Positions 6,773 to 17,791 of a DNA stretch of 64,000 bases are shown piece by piece. The number at the start of each line of letters is the position of its first letter. Positions within the stretch are counted from its first letter, which is position 1. The position numbers and the translations under genes were made by a program. The stretch lies in contig NZ_JHZF01000011.1 of NCBI RefSeq assembly GCF_000688295.1, positions 1,210,288-1,274,287 on the forward strand, in the 5' to 3' direction. Under the pieces are notes generated by a model. It saw only the letters and a program-made list of their open reading frames with translations. It did no database searches and was not told the origin of the DNA. Origin of the DNA: Pseudooceanicola nanhaiensis DSM 18065. Its GTDB lineage: Bacteria; Pseudomonadota; Alphaproteobacteria; Rhodobacterales; Rhodobacteraceae.

Positions 6773-6814
6773 GGAGAAATTTCAAGCCTAAAGTTTTATA
6801 CTTGAAATTTCTCC
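6773..6814. promoter_or_regulatory. operator: 14-bp perfect inverted repeat in divergent promoter
   Basis: Arms GGAGAAATTTCAAG (6773-6786) and CTTGAAATTTCTCC (6801-6814) are exactly complementary around a 14-nt AT-rich spacer. It sits between the divergent thioesterase operon and the monooxygenase/reductase gene. The TTTCAAG...CTTGAAA core recurs at 17759-17791 in front of the marR gene, so it is the likely target of that regulator. Confidence 0.78.
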
Positions 6815-6865
6815 GCGACCCGTGGAAAGTTTCCCGAGCACCGACGCCTTGAAGGAGGGAAGCGC

Positions 6866-9151
6866 ATGAAGACCGTCTGCATCGGGGGCGGGCCGTCCGG
6901 CCTCTACTTCGCGATCAGCCTCAAGCTCCGCAATCCGGAGGCCGAGGTGCTGGTGATCGAACGCAACAGGCCCGACGACACCTTCGGCTGGGGCGTCGTG
7001 CTGTCGGACGAGACGCTCGACAACCTCGAGAAGAACGATCCCAGGAGCGCCGAGGCGATCCGCGGCCATTTCGCCTATTGGGACGACATCAAGGTGGTGA
7101 AGGAAGATGTGGCCATCACCTCGACCGGCCACGGCTTCTGCGGTCTGGGGCGGAAGGTGATGCTGATGCTCCTGCAGGACCGCTGCCGCGAGCTCGGGAT
7201 CGAGATGCGGTTCGAGACGGAGGTCGAGGACCTCGATGCCCTCAAGGCCGAGTACGACCTCGTGGTCGCCGCCGACGGGATCAACTCGAAGACCCGCACG
7301 CAATATGCCGACGCCTTCAAGCCCGAGATCGACACCCGCGCCTGCAAGTTCGTCTGGCTCGGCACCCGCGCGAAGTTCGACGACGCCTTCACCTTCATCT
7401 TCAAGAAGACCCCGCACGGCTGGGTCTGGGCGCATGCCTACCAGTTCGACGCCGACACCGCGACCTTCATCGTCGAATGTGCCGAGGACACCTGGCGCGC
7501 CATCGGCTTCGACACGATGAGCCAGGAGGCATCGATCGCGGAATGCGAGCGCATCTTCGCGGACCACCTCGACGACAACGCGCTGATCTCCAACGCCAAG
7601 CACCTGCGCGGCTCGGCCTGGCTGAACTTCAACCGGGTGCTCTGCGAGAAGTGGCATCACGAGAACGTCGTCCTCCTGGGCGATGCCTCGGCGACGGCGC
7701 ATTTCTCGATCGGGTCGGGCACCAAGCTGGCGCTCGAATCGGCCATCGCGCTGGCGGAGCTGGTCAGCACAAAGCCGTCGCTCGAGGAGGCCTTCACCGC
7801 CTACCAGGAGGAGCGCCGCCTCGACGTCCTCCGCCTGCAATCGGCGGCGCGCAACTCCACCGAGTGGTTCGAGGACGTGGAGCGCTATCTCCACCTCGAT
7901 CCCGTACAGTTCAACTATTCGCTCCTGACCCGCTCCCAGCGGATCAGCCACGAGAACCTGCGCCTGCGCGACCCCGAATGGCTGAAGAGCGCCGAGGAAT
8001 GGTTCCAGGCCCAGGCCGGCGCGAACGGCCACCGCGCGCCGATGTTCGCGCCCTTCCGGCTGCGGGACATGGCGCTGAAGAACCGCGTCGTGGTGTCGCC
8101 CATGGCCCAGTACAAGGCCGTCGACGGCTGCCCCACCGACTGGCACTTCGCCCATTACGCCGAACGCGCCAAGGGCGGCGCGGGGCTCGTCTATATCGAG
8201 ATGACCTGCGTCTCGCCCGAGGGCCGCATCACGCCCGGCTGCCCCGGCCTCTACGCGCCCGAGCACGAGGCGGCGTGGCGGCGGCTGACGGATTTCGTCC
8301 ATGCCGAGACCGGCGCGAAGCTCTGCATGCAGATCGGGCATTCGGGCCGGAAAGGCTCCACCCAGCTCGGCTGGGAGGAGATGGACGCGCCGCTCAAGGA
8401 AGGGAACTGGGAGACGGTCTCGGCCTCCGACCTGCCCTGGGGCGACGGTCACTCGAAGCCGCGCGCCATCGACCGGGCCGGGATGGACGCGATCCGCGAC
8501 CAGTTCGTGAGCGCCACCGAAATGGCCGACCGCGCGGGCTTCGACATGATCGAGCTGCACGCGGCACACGGCTACCTGCTGTCGTCCTTCATCTCGCCCG
8601 TCTCGAACAACCGCACCGACGAATACGGCGGCAGCCTCGAGAACCGGATGCGCTACCCGCTCGAGGTCTTCCGCGCCATGCGTGCCGCCTGGCCCGAGGA
8701 CAAGCCCATGTCCGTCCGCATCTCGGCCACCGACTGGGTCGGCGAGCGCGGCGTCGAGGGCGAGGAGGCGGTCGAGATCGCGCGCCTCTTCCGCGAGGCC
8801 GGGGTGGATATCGTCGATGTCTCGGCGGGCCAGACCTCGGTCGAGGCGCGCCCGGTCTATGGCCGGATGTTCCAGACGCCGTTCTCGGACCGCATCAGGA
8901 ACGAGGGCGGGATCCCCACCATGGCCGTCGGCAATATCTACGAGCCCGACCACGTCAACTCGATCCTGATGGCGGGCCGCGCGGACCTCGTCTGCCTCGC
9001 CCGGCCGCACCTGGCCGATCCCTACTGGACGCTCCATGCCGCGGCCGCGCTCGGCGACGAGGAGACCGCCTGGCCCCTGCCCTACCTCCCCGGCCGCGAC
9101 CAGATGCGCCGCCTCGCCGAGCGCGGCGAGGGGCTGGGGATCCGCGTATGA
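6866..9151 (+). CDS. 2-aminobenzoyl-CoA monooxygenase/reductase-type fusion (FAD monooxygenase + old yellow enzyme)
   Basis: A 761-residue two-domain flavoenzyme. Residues 1-390 are a group A FAD monooxygenase: dinucleotide motif [15 protein letters not shown] at residues 5-19 and the late FAD motif [18 protein letters not shown]. Residues 392-761 are an old-yellow-enzyme barrel: [20 protein letters not shown], substrate-side [17 protein letters not shown] and [14 protein letters not shown]. This architecture is that of 2-aminobenzoyl-CoA monooxygenase/reductase, which hydroxylates and dearomatises anthraniloyl-CoA to 2-amino-5-oxocyclohex-1-enecarbonyl-CoA; salicylyl-CoA 5-hydroxylases are close relatives. 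The kyn genes and the CoA ligase in the island favour the anthranilate role. Confidence 0.9.
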
Positions 9152-9897
9152 CCGACCTCTCGGGCCGCCGCGCGCTCGTCACCGGCGGCGGAGGCGGCCT
9201 CGGTGCGGATCTCGCGCGGGGGCTGGCTGCGGCGGGGGCCGAGGTCTGGATCGCCGGGCGGAGGGCCGAGGCGCTGGAGACGGTCGCGGCGGACGCGCCG
9301 GGCGGGCGCATCCATCCGGTCGCAGCCGACGTCACCGACGAGGCCTCGGTCGCCGCGATGTTCGATGCGGCGGGCCCCTGCGACATCGTCATCGCCAATG
9401 CCGGGGCGTCCGAGAGCGCGCCCTTCGGGAAGACCTCGCTCGCCGCCTGGGAGCGGATGATCTCGGTCAACCTCACCGGCTGCTTCCTGACCCTCCGCGA
9501 GGGCGCGCGGCAGATGGACGGCTGGGGCCGCCTCATCGCGGTCGCCTCGACCGCGGGGCTCAAGGGCTACGGCTACGTCTCGGCCTATGCGGCGGCAAAG
9601 CATGGCGTGGTCGGCATGGTGAAGAGCGCCGCGCTGGAGATGGCGCGGAGCGGGGTGACGGTGAACGCCCTCTGCCCCGGCTTCCTCGACACCGAGATGA
9701 CCGCGGCCTCCATCGCCAACATCACCGAAAAGACCGGCATGAGCGCCGAAGCCGCCCGCGCCTCGCTCGAGAAGATGTCCCCCCAGAAGCGCCTGATCCG
9801 GCCGGCGGAGGTCACCGCCGCCGCCCTTTGGCTCTGCGGGCCGGGGTCGGAGGGGATCACCGGCCAGGCCATCTCGATCTCCGGCGGTGAGGTCTAG
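9148..9897 (+). CDS. short-chain dehydrogenase/reductase (3-hydroxyacyl-CoA dehydrogenase type)
   Basis: A 249-residue Rossmann-fold SDR. The cofactor motif TGGGGGLG is at residues 12-19, NAG marks the core, the catalytic Ser is in ASTAG, and the Tyr/Lys pair is in YAAAKHG. The ATG overlaps the stop of the preceding fusion gene (ATGA), so both are made from one transcript. In context it should oxidise or reduce an alicyclic beta-hydroxyacyl-CoA after dearomatisation; substrate and direction are inferred. Confidence 0.87.
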
Positions 9898-9941
9898 GGC
9901 GGGATTAACCCTGCCGCGCCCCGCCCGAGGCGGGAAGTATG

Positions 9942-16711: not shown

Positions 16712-16826
16712 TGGTAACTCCCTGGTTTGTGTCGTCGCGGCTTTGCCGTCTTGTTGGGCCTTCCGGCCTTTCGGAGGCATCCGCCGTGCAGGTGCATTCA
16801 GCGATCCAGCACGTTGCGAATGCAAG

Positions 16827-17669
16827 TTATTTCCCCGGTTCTGTCGCCTCCGCCCGGTCGAGCGCCGCGCGCATCAGGGGCGAGTCCGGATCGGCCAGCC
16901 CGTCGATGACGCTGAAATGGTGCCGGTCGGGTTCGACCACGCAGGCGGTCCGGGCGCCGAGCCCGTGCCAGATGTTGGGCAGAAGCGCCGCCTGACGCAG
17001 GAACTCCTGCCGCTCGCCGCCGCCGACCCATGCGGTCAGCTGCACGCCCGGCAGCGGGCGCTTGAGCGCCGGGCTGTTCGCCTCGGCACTCTCCATGTCG
17101 AGCTTCAAGAGGTCGTTCCGCGCGGTGTTCATCAGCGGGCGCAGGTCGTGCAGGCCCGAGATGGAGACCACGTGCTTCAGCCGGGCCTGAACGGCGCCGG
17201 GCAGCGGGCTGTCGTGGCACATCATGGCCGAGACGAGATGCCCGCCCGCCGAATGGCCGGAGATGACGATGGGGCCCGCGATCTCGTTGGCGGCATGCGC
17301 AATGGCCGCGCCGACCTGGCCGGTGATGTCGGTGATCGAGACGTCCGGGCAGAGGTCATAGGAGGGAATCGCCACCGCCCAGCCCCGCGCCACGGCGCCT
17401 GCGGCCAGGTGCGACCAGTAGCTCTTGTCGAGTGCGATCCAGTAGCCGCCATGCACGAAGACGAAGAGCCCGCGCGGCGTCCCTTCGGGCAGGAAGAGGT
17501 CGTAGCGGTGCCGCGCGCCTTCCCCGTAGGCGAGGTCCAGACGGGCGTTCGCGGAGTTGCGGAAATTTTCGGCAGGCGCCACCCACGGCCCCGGATATTC
17601 GGTGCCGCCGGGGATGTTGCGCCCGTTCTCGTAGGCGCTTTCCCAATCCTTCACGTCGAAGACGATCAC
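16827..17669 (-). CDS. alpha/beta-hydrolase, probable kynurenine formamidase (arylformamidase)
   Basis: A 280-residue serine hydrolase. The oxyanion-hole motif HGGYW is at residues 73-77 and the nucleophile elbow GHSAGG has Ser140; a C-terminal EPDRHHFSVIDG offers the catalytic His. HGGYW is characteristic of the eukaryotic-type kynurenine formamidase branch, unlike the metal-dependent bacterial KynB. It supplies the step between kynA (N-formylkynurenine) and kynU (kynurenine), otherwise missing in the window. It is transcribed from the operator-bearing region shared with marR. Confidence 0.78.
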   Translation of the reverse strand: MIVFDVKDWESAYENGRNIPGGTEYPGPWVAPAENFRNSANARLDLAYGEGARHRYDLFLPEGTPRGLFVFVHGGYWIALDKSYWSHLAAGAVARGWAVAIPSYDLCPDVSITDITGQVGAAIAHAANEIAGPIVISGHSAGGHLVSAMMCHDSPLPGAVQARLKHVVSISGLHDLRPLMNTARNDLLKLDMESAEANSPALKRPLPGVQLTAWVGGGERQEFLRQAALLPNIWHGLGARTACVVEPDRHHFSVIDGLADPDSPLMRAALDRAEATEPGK

Positions 17670-17758
17670 GCAGGATCTCCCTTGTTTTATGGGGCAGCGG
17701 CCGGAAATCTCGCCTCCGAAGCGCCGTCCTTTTCAGCATCGTTACGCGGCGGCGAATA

Positions 17759-17791
17759 TATTTCAAGCTCAAACCTTTTTTGCTTGAAATA
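17759..17791. promoter_or_regulatory. operator: 10-bp inverted repeat upstream of marR and the formamidase gene
   Basis: Arms TATTTCAAGC (17759-17768) and GCTTGAAATA (17782-17791) are exact inverted repeats around 13 nt. The TTTCAAG/CTTGAAA words match the site at 6773-6814, with spacing one base longer. The position between divergent genes, one encoding a MarR protein, indicates an autoregulated operator. Confidence 0.76.

Follow-up and report, generated by a model that had tools for sequence, protein, structure and literature searches.

In the 64,000-nucleotide stretch of Pseudooceanicola nanhaiensis DSM 18065 analysed here (contig NZ_JHZF01000011.1; called the window throughout), two palindromes, site 1 and site 2, are very probably the operators of a MarR-family repressor encoded at 17850-18344, which would govern four transcripts of a putative island for tryptophan and anthranilate breakdown by the mechanism proposed below. 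The regulon prediction itself, a MarR repressor of an aryl-CoA pathway, is of a familiar type and well supported by comparison of related loci, and the operator is re-read as a probable double box lying over -35 elements. The sites, their architecture, their conservation, their overlap with promoters and their link to this MarR emerge clearly when related genomes are compared.

Two Palindromes Between Divergent Genes

Site 1 (6773-6814) has perfect 14-bp arms, GGAGAAATTTCAAG at 6773-6786 and its exact complement at 6801-6814, around the core TTTCAAG-N14-CTTGAAA at 6780-6807. In site 2, the 10-bp arm TATTTCAAGC at 17759-17768 is matched by its complement at 17782-17791, and the core at 17761-17789 has an arm spacing of 15. 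Both sites lie between divergent genes, and 58 nt separate site 2 from the GTG start of marR at 17850. An earlier note on this DNA had described two palindromes with 14-bp and 10-bp arms and core spacings of 14 and 15, each in a divergent promoter region and the second just before marR; the coordinates, the arms and the flanking genes bear this description out.

Both palindromes are real and not chance. TTTCAAG-N10..20-CTTGAAA has two exact matches in the window and none in 100 dinucleotide shuffles. The wider pattern TTTCAAG-N8..22-CTTGAAA occurs at three places in the 4,659,730-base genome, namely sites 1 and 2 and an N8 palindrome, which was rejected as a further regulon site because it lies inside an open reading frame; at N14 or N15, the exact arms are found genome-wide at sites 1 and 2 only. 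The 12-bp box TTYARGCYTRAA has a single exact occurrence in 4.66 Mb, within site 1. The shorter pattern TTCAAG-N14/15-CTTRAA gives two forward matches in this genome and one in the backwards control, while the pattern of the 14-bp-spaced class with up to three mismatches finds site 1 only, its backwards control also hitting one place. A GC-rich match with three mismatches at window positions 38461-38489 and three single boxes with two mismatches in the same genome were likewise rejected as regulon sites. The spread over many unrelated promoters that had been envisaged beforehand as counting against the motif does not apply to this genome, where it is nearly absent elsewhere.

A chance palindrome is ruled out by the window shuffles, the genome counts and the conservation described in the next section, and a terminator or RNA hairpin by the fixed position 5′ of genes together with the -35/-10 layout. 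A terminator scan made no call at site 1 or site 2.

Conservation Upstream of the ACMR Gene

Site 1 precedes the gene of the proposed 2-aminobenzoyl-CoA monooxygenase/reductase (ACMR), and its relatives were collected in two ways. A scan with the MarR protein supplied 80 named loci, the best 80 of 495 confirmed matches, in which ACMR genes with more than 60% identity and upstream sequence present were scored. An operator match with at most three mismatches precedes 61 of these 66 ACMR genes if spacings of 13-16 are allowed, and 60 of the 66 (0-3 mismatches) at spacing 14 or 15; 57 of the latter 60 sites begin 75-105 bp before the gene.

The second sample was not chosen by MarR and consisted of the ACMR clusters of 199 genomes of the family, representing 198 genera. 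Besides P. nanhaiensis itself, 67 genomes have an ACMR with more than 60% identity; L104, with the gene at the contig start, and L143, with 117 bp upstream, were dropped, leaving 65. The operator is present with at most three mismatches in 58 of these 65 upstream regions, the best match showing 0, 1, 2, 3, 4 and 5 mismatches in 19, 7, 17, 15, 3 and 4 of them. By comparison, 20 dinucleotide shuffles per region gave 31 such matches in 1300, or 1.6 per 65, and five pairs of other spacings (10-13, 16-21) yielded 3-5 of 65 each. The question raised in the earlier note, whether the motif stays with these genes in related Rhodobacteraceae, can thus be answered in the affirmative. One locus (L053) carries two candidate operators, at 6793-6820 and 6850-6878, with three mismatches each, before a single ACMR gene.

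The Link to the MarR Protein

That the motif tracks this MarR and these genes holds up across the family and beyond, as judged by comparative counts. Site 2 is located in the promoter region of marR itself, and exact arms precede marR, as the first gene, in 13 of the 80 named loci (including L004-L012, L017, L018 and L041). Of the 199 family genomes, 68 encode full-length ACMR (1100 bits or more), 72 a MarR orthologue (93 bits or more) and 67 both, these cut-offs having been set after the score lists were viewed. Among 397 genomes of the phylum Pseudomonadota, the corresponding numbers are 79, 85 and 75 at E ≤1e-200 for ACMR and E ≤1e-20 for MarR, the latter admitting some paralogues. No site was found in L085 (genome G093), the sole family genome with ACMR but no MarR match, which is one case in a fragmented assembly that is also without the ligase at 1e-80. 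Likewise, four MarR paralogues with 34-39% identity (L097-L100) have no site with three mismatches or fewer within 300 bp.

The operator is also retained at MarR genes outside ACMR clusters. The MarR-kynA-kynU genes of L087 are accompanied by CTTCAAGCTTGAAATTTCATGCTTGAAG, read from the marR side, with two mismatches, those of L086 by an operator with three mismatches, and in L093 an operator with one mismatch lies between a kynB-like gene and MarR-ligase-kynA-kynU. The two MarR-kynA-kynU units with this operator are at 8875-9440 (L086) and 8335-8911 (L087); in L086, genes for an acyl-CoA dehydrogenase and a formamidase-like protein lie on the other side of the unit. In a MarR tree, these two kyn-only members fall into separate small groups (support 0.85 and 0.17), and the idea of a single kyn clade of MarR was dropped since the tree splits L086 from L087.

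It is very unlikely that another regulator occupies the sites, be it an Lrp protein, a TetR protein of the QacR kind or the second MarR, encoded at 22082. QacR does take a 28-bp operator as a dimer pair (PMC6018408), and an Lrp-type domain is present in the kyn arm. However, the co-occurrence of ACMR with the MarR at 17850 is close to perfect, in a test that covered this MarR alone, and the Lrp-domain sequence is found in 17 of 165 loci and, with its 78 residues, leaves no room for a DNA-binding domain. The second MarR-family gene (window 22082-23729) stands directly before an EmrA-type efflux gene, and the mismatch scan of the window revealed no operator candidate near it.

Each Operator as a Probable Pair of Boxes

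The operators are composed of the following predicted elements:

6780-6793 and 6794-6807, 28 bp: operator 1, two abutting 14-bp putative MarR boxes, core mismatches to TTYARGCYTRAA 0 and 2
17761-17774 and 17776-17789, 29 bp: operator 2, two 14-bp putative MarR boxes 1 bp apart, core mismatches to TTYARGCYTRAA 1 and 2

Each site had previously been read as two half-sites with a neutral spacer, a view that is revised here: the spacer is conserved and arm-like, and single boxes occur in distant relatives. The spacer test used sites selected for an AT-rich interior between exact TTCAA/TTGAA arms. In the 14-bp-spaced class (41 distinct sites), the inner seven bases match CTTGAAA at a mean of 5.28 of 7 positions versus 2.27 in permuted columns, a value reached by a fraction of 0.0034 of permutations, and in the 15-bp-spaced class (35 sites) at 4.07 versus 2.39 (fraction 0.011). 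An inner half with 6/7 or better is present in 28 sites of the first class and 7 of the second, and some relatives possess nearly perfect double boxes, e.g., CTTCAAGCTTGAAATTTTAAGCTTGAAG (L171).

The distant set comprised 40 ACMR upstream regions (49-63% identity), taken from 50 more distant ACMR matches that had no locus. Within 200 bp, the single box TTTCAAGCTTGAAA appears with at most three mismatches in 13 of the 40, where shuffles predict 0.4, and with at most four in 27, where 2.7 are expected. The consensus TTYARGCYTRAA, with at most one mismatch, is present in 24 of the 40 (0.12 expected), the other 16 being worse; it was picked after the distant sequences had been viewed, and the test was repeated with the earlier word TTTCAAGCTTGAAA. 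The conserved arm-like spacer and the single boxes of distant relatives indicate that the elementary operator is a 12-14-bp palindrome. The window sites would then be two such boxes at a centre spacing of 14 or 15 bp, and two MarR dimers may occupy each operator.

A single MarR dimer could instead read the whole 28/29-bp palindrome as distant half-sites around a neutral spacer. The palindrome is symmetric overall, its outer arms are its best conserved part, and the inner halves in the window are degenerate (4/7). Nevertheless, this is unlikely in view of the spacer values and single-box counts given above; in addition, a MarR dimer is reported to contact successive major grooves (PMC5487221), a reach that arms 21-22 bp apart exceed. 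For two dimers per operator, there is a geometric analogy in the TetR-family protein QacR, whose 28-bp palindromic operator is held by two dimers (PMC6018408); the likeness lies in the 28-bp palindrome, as QacR belongs to an unrelated protein family.

Predicted Promoters over the Operators

The right arm of the operator holds TTGAAA, a -35 box. In 64 sites from the named loci with at most two mismatches, a -10-like TANNNT lies 16 nt (16 sites) or 17 nt (39 sites) past TTGAAA, that is, in 55 of 64, while all other offsets from 6 to 33 nt combined give 7; TAGCCT and TATCCT are the commonest hexamers. A generic sigma-70 scan called no promoter at sites 1 or 2, and the -10 element is seen only by aligning relatives. 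In the window, the following promoters are predicted:

17784..17812, plus strand: predicted promoter of the marR operon; TTGAAA (17784-17789) inside the operator, 17 nt, TAGCCT (17807-17812), an exact fit
17738..17766, minus strand: predicted promoter of the hydrolase-transporter arm; TTGAAA in the left arm, 17 nt, AACGAT, a weak -10 placed by eye
6802..6830, plus strand: predicted ACMR promoter; TTGAAA in the right arm, 17 nt, GAAAGT, a weak -10 placed by eye
6757..6785, minus strand: predicted promoter of thioesterase-ridA-kynA-kynU; TTGAAA in the left arm, 17 nt, AAAAGT, a weak -10 placed by eye

Since the TTGAAA -35 box is inside the operator arm, bound MarR should block the promoter. As in CouR, the operator thus covers the predicted -35 boxes of two catabolic promoters that point away from each other; the leftward -10 boxes are weak and recognised by eye only.

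Genes of the Island

Four arms diverge in pairs from the two sites:

6258..6677, minus strand (arm 1): 4HBT-type acyl-CoA thioesterase (profile and Pfam matches)
5857..6252, minus strand (arm 1): RidA-family protein (profile and Pfam matches)
5613..5846, minus strand (arm 1): stand-alone Lrp/AsnC ligand-binding domain protein, 78 residues (PF01037, 2.9e-12)
4713..5546, minus strand (arm 1): kynA, tryptophan 2,3-dioxygenase (TIGR03036, 382.8 bits, cut-off 390.7)
3523..4716, minus strand (arm 1): kynU, kynureninase (TIGR01814, 276.2 bits, cut-off 246.4)
6866..9151, plus strand (arm 2): ACMR, proposed 2-aminobenzoyl-CoA monooxygenase/reductase (NF006101, 1290.2 bits, cut-off 1078; Pfam FAD_binding_3 and Oxidored_FMN)
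9148..9897, plus strand (arm 2): short-chain dehydrogenase (profile matches)
16827..17669, minus strand (arm 3): alpha/beta hydrolase, proposed kynurenine formamidase (NF058665, hormone-sensitive-lipase family, 370.6 bits, cut-off 320)
12146..16825, minus strand (arm 3): branched-chain-type ABC transporter, substrate-binding protein and LivHMGF-like components (below equivalog cut-offs; Peripla_BP_6)
10432..12145, minus strand (end of arm 3): cupin and FAD monooxygenase (profile and Pfam matches)
17850..18344, plus strand (arm 4): MarR-family regulator, proposed binder of both operators (PF01047, 3.2e-10; PF12802, 4.2e-10; above cut-offs)
18341..19141, plus strand (arm 4): enoyl-CoA hydratase family protein (NF006107, 473.6 bits, cut-off 330)
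19141..20298, plus strand (arm 4): acyl-CoA dehydrogenase family protein (all profile matches below their own cut-offs)
20348..22015, plus strand (arm 4): benzoate-CoA-ligase-type ligase, proposed 2-aminobenzoate-CoA ligase (TIGR02262, 362.2 bits, 13 bits under the cut-off of 375.25)

The kyn arm had been given as thioesterase-ridA-kynA-kynU, which proves incomplete: the 78-residue frame at 5613-5846 fills the gap between ridA and kynA and makes the arm a run of five genes. As a ligand-binding domain without a DNA-binding domain, its product may be a small-molecule sensor; the 17 loci with similar sequence include this copy. Relatives of the arm 3 hydrolase stand with kynA/kynU in some loci.

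Kynureninase converts kynurenine to anthranilate. ACMR is a fusion of an FAD monooxygenase to an OYE-type domain, and the island combines this type of fusion enzyme with a benzoate-type CoA ligase, the pair that marks a 2-aminobenzoyl-CoA cluster. ACMR is read as a 2-aminobenzoyl-CoA enzyme because of the kyn genes nearby and the Azoarcus evansii pathway (PMC4539516). It is very unlikely that the pathway served is instead that of salicylyl-CoA, as the NCBIfam name of NF006101 (salicylyl-CoA 5-hydroxylase/oxidoreductase) would have it, given that the runs beside candidate operators contain kynA or kynU in 34 of 162 loci and that the A. evansii enzyme of this role is a 2-aminobenzoyl-CoA flavoenzyme (PMC4539516).

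Extent of the Predicted Regulon

If a candidate site is defined by at most three mismatches, an AT-rich interior and a position no more than 260 bp from a gene with a match to a cluster protein, 151 such sites are found in 137 of 162 loci, with paralogue and duplicate loci counted and some of the three-mismatch sites due to chance. Gene runs beside 36 of the sites, with gaps of up to 900 bp allowed between matched genes, account for the 34 loci with kynA or kynU; judged from these runs, the kyn genes often belong to the regulon but need not. In P. atlanticus (L005), an operator of its own (2306-2333, two mismatches) precedes a thioesterase-ridA-kynA run, and no ACMR match was found in the 20.5-kb locus. 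In L023, L050, L074 and L083, the run divergent from ACMR starts with kynA or kynU. In two other loci, an acyl-CoA dehydrogenase gene on the minus strand diverges from ACMR beside the operator (L020, 5580-6848; L040, 5593-6882); its matches to FadE- and glutaryl-CoA-dehydrogenase-type models are all below cut-offs, and it may belong to the regulon as well.

Comparison lends good support to the prediction that shared operators govern all four transcripts. The regulon under a shared MarR that the earlier note had put forward therefore stands in that the motif follows MarR and the genes and overlaps promoters; its anatomy of the operator does not, and its kyn genes turn out to be optional.

Proposed Mechanism and Effector

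We infer MarR binding, repression, two-dimer occupancy and the extent of each transcript as follows. Each operator, with its two side-by-side 14-bp boxes, would hold two MarR dimers. Because the TTGAAA of an outer arm would also be the -35 box for transcription in the outward direction, bound MarR would compete with RNA polymerase at both divergent promoters. From site 1, it would shut off the thioesterase-ridA-Lrp domain-kynA-kynU and ACMR-short-chain dehydrogenase transcripts, and from site 2, the hydrolase-transporter-cupin-monooxygenase transcript and its own marR-hydratase-dehydrogenase-ligase operon. Once anthranilate, arising from tryptophan via KynU or supplied externally, is activated, repression would be lifted. 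The likeliest effector would be 2-aminobenzoyl-CoA, which the thioesterase may drain away.

A CoA ester, 2-aminobenzoyl-CoA, as the effector in the window is plausible, with about an even chance of being right, and forms the weakest part of the explanation. It is favoured because the ligase belongs to the marR operon and because of the precedents of CouR and FerC, which respond to CoA thioesters (PMC4737184, PMC5487221). With the same MarR and operators, the effector could also be a free acid or amino acid (anthranilate, kynurenine or tryptophan), which we regard as possible, if rather less probable. An unesterified ligand is apparently bound by HcaR of A. baylyi (PMC5487221), and two genomes have MarR-kynA-kynU and the operator without ligase and ACMR at the thresholds used. 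On the other hand, the ligase follows MarR in the same run in most mapped clusters, and the two kyn-only exceptions are divergent members (53-54% identity) that may have changed effector.

Several observations weigh against the interpretation given here. In the window, agreement with CTTGAAA is limited to 4/7 in each of the four inner halves. The best match has 4-5 mismatches in 7 of the 65 ACMR regions, six of which keep the right arm and inner flank beside a decayed left box, the seventh being the MarR-less L085. The pattern TTCAAG-N14/15-CTTRAA occurs somewhere in 140 of the 199 family genomes, and as its backwards control is common too, the pattern alone is unspecific outside P. nanhaiensis. 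The loci share descent, so the counts are not independent, and the MarR-selected and ACMR-selected sets overlap in genomes. As for the promoters, 9 of the 64 sites have no TANNNT at 16-17 nt, and the -10 hexamers of site 1 itself are weak. Left-arm mismatches are not distinctly fewer with a divergent neighbour (mean 1.34, n=67) than with a co-directional one (1.56, n=43), as assigned by a crude longest-ORF (open reading frame) rule. Finally, the genomes of the kyn-only loci L086 and L087 (G175 and G186), with MarR-kynA-kynU and an operator with three and two mismatches, respectively, gave neither a ligase match at 1e-80 nor an ACMR match at 1e-60, which argues against a CoA ester as the effector in every member.

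Since the left arm, by this crude rule, is conserved to about the same degree with or without a divergent neighbour, the second box may take part in repression and not serve as a promoter element alone. Apart from this, many of the family genomes listed for the short pattern share TTCAAGAACGGTCAGACCTTCCTTGAA or its complement, apparently part of a conserved coding region, which pushes up the counts of that pattern.

Relation to Known Regulators and Significance

The MarR-family protein CouR of Rhodococcus jostii RHA1 has an operator that extends across the -35 boxes of two divergent promoters, and p-coumaroyl-CoA brings about its release (PMC4737184). As proposed here for the window MarR, it represses an aromatic-acid catabolic regulon that includes its own divergent gene, with an aryl-CoA as the effector; its box, cATTGA-N5-TCAATg, is a single inverted repeat located between the two divergent promoters, whereas the window has two boxes of another sequence 14-15 bp apart. 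The two proteins are not close in sequence: matches of the window MarR to CouR are weak (5cyv, 2.1e-6; 3fm5, 2.2e-6), while the closest solved chain is that of the MarR-family protein 3boq in the PDB (2.9e-23, residues 11-142), and the same MarR fold is expected for the window protein. By eye, 3boq resembles the paralogue group with 34-39% identity (L097-L100), the group for which no operator with three mismatches or fewer was seen within 300 bp. The protein is presumably from Silicibacter, and we know of no operator or ligand for it.

Our literature search found no described regulator of the aerobic CoA route of anthranilate breakdown, although the subscription literature could hold more. In the main text of a review that covers the 2-aminobenzoate (anthranilate) clusters of A. 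evansii, the word "regulator" does not occur (PMC4539516), and that of a regulon survey of Proteobacteria contains no anthranil-, aminobenz- or kynuren- (PMC5343134).

A broader scenario can be put forward only tentatively. One MarR lineage might regulate anthranilate-CoA catabolism phylum-wide, through a single 14-bp box in distant members; the line leading to the window might have fixed the two-box operator, with the outer arms as the -35 boxes of both divergent promoters; kynurenine genes might have been captured repeatedly, and in some genomes, those with MarR-kynA-kynU but without ligase or ACMR, kynurenine or anthranilate might have taken the place of a CoA ester as effector.

For anthranilate breakdown by the aerobic CoA route, the analysis supplies a candidate regulator, operator and regulon that can be put to the test, and it connects this route with the catabolism of tryptophan. 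A MarR that senses a 2-aminobenzoyl metabolite, if this is true, would be usable as a biosensor, and the change from a single-box to a double-box operator within one group of related regulators would offer a case for studying operator evolution.

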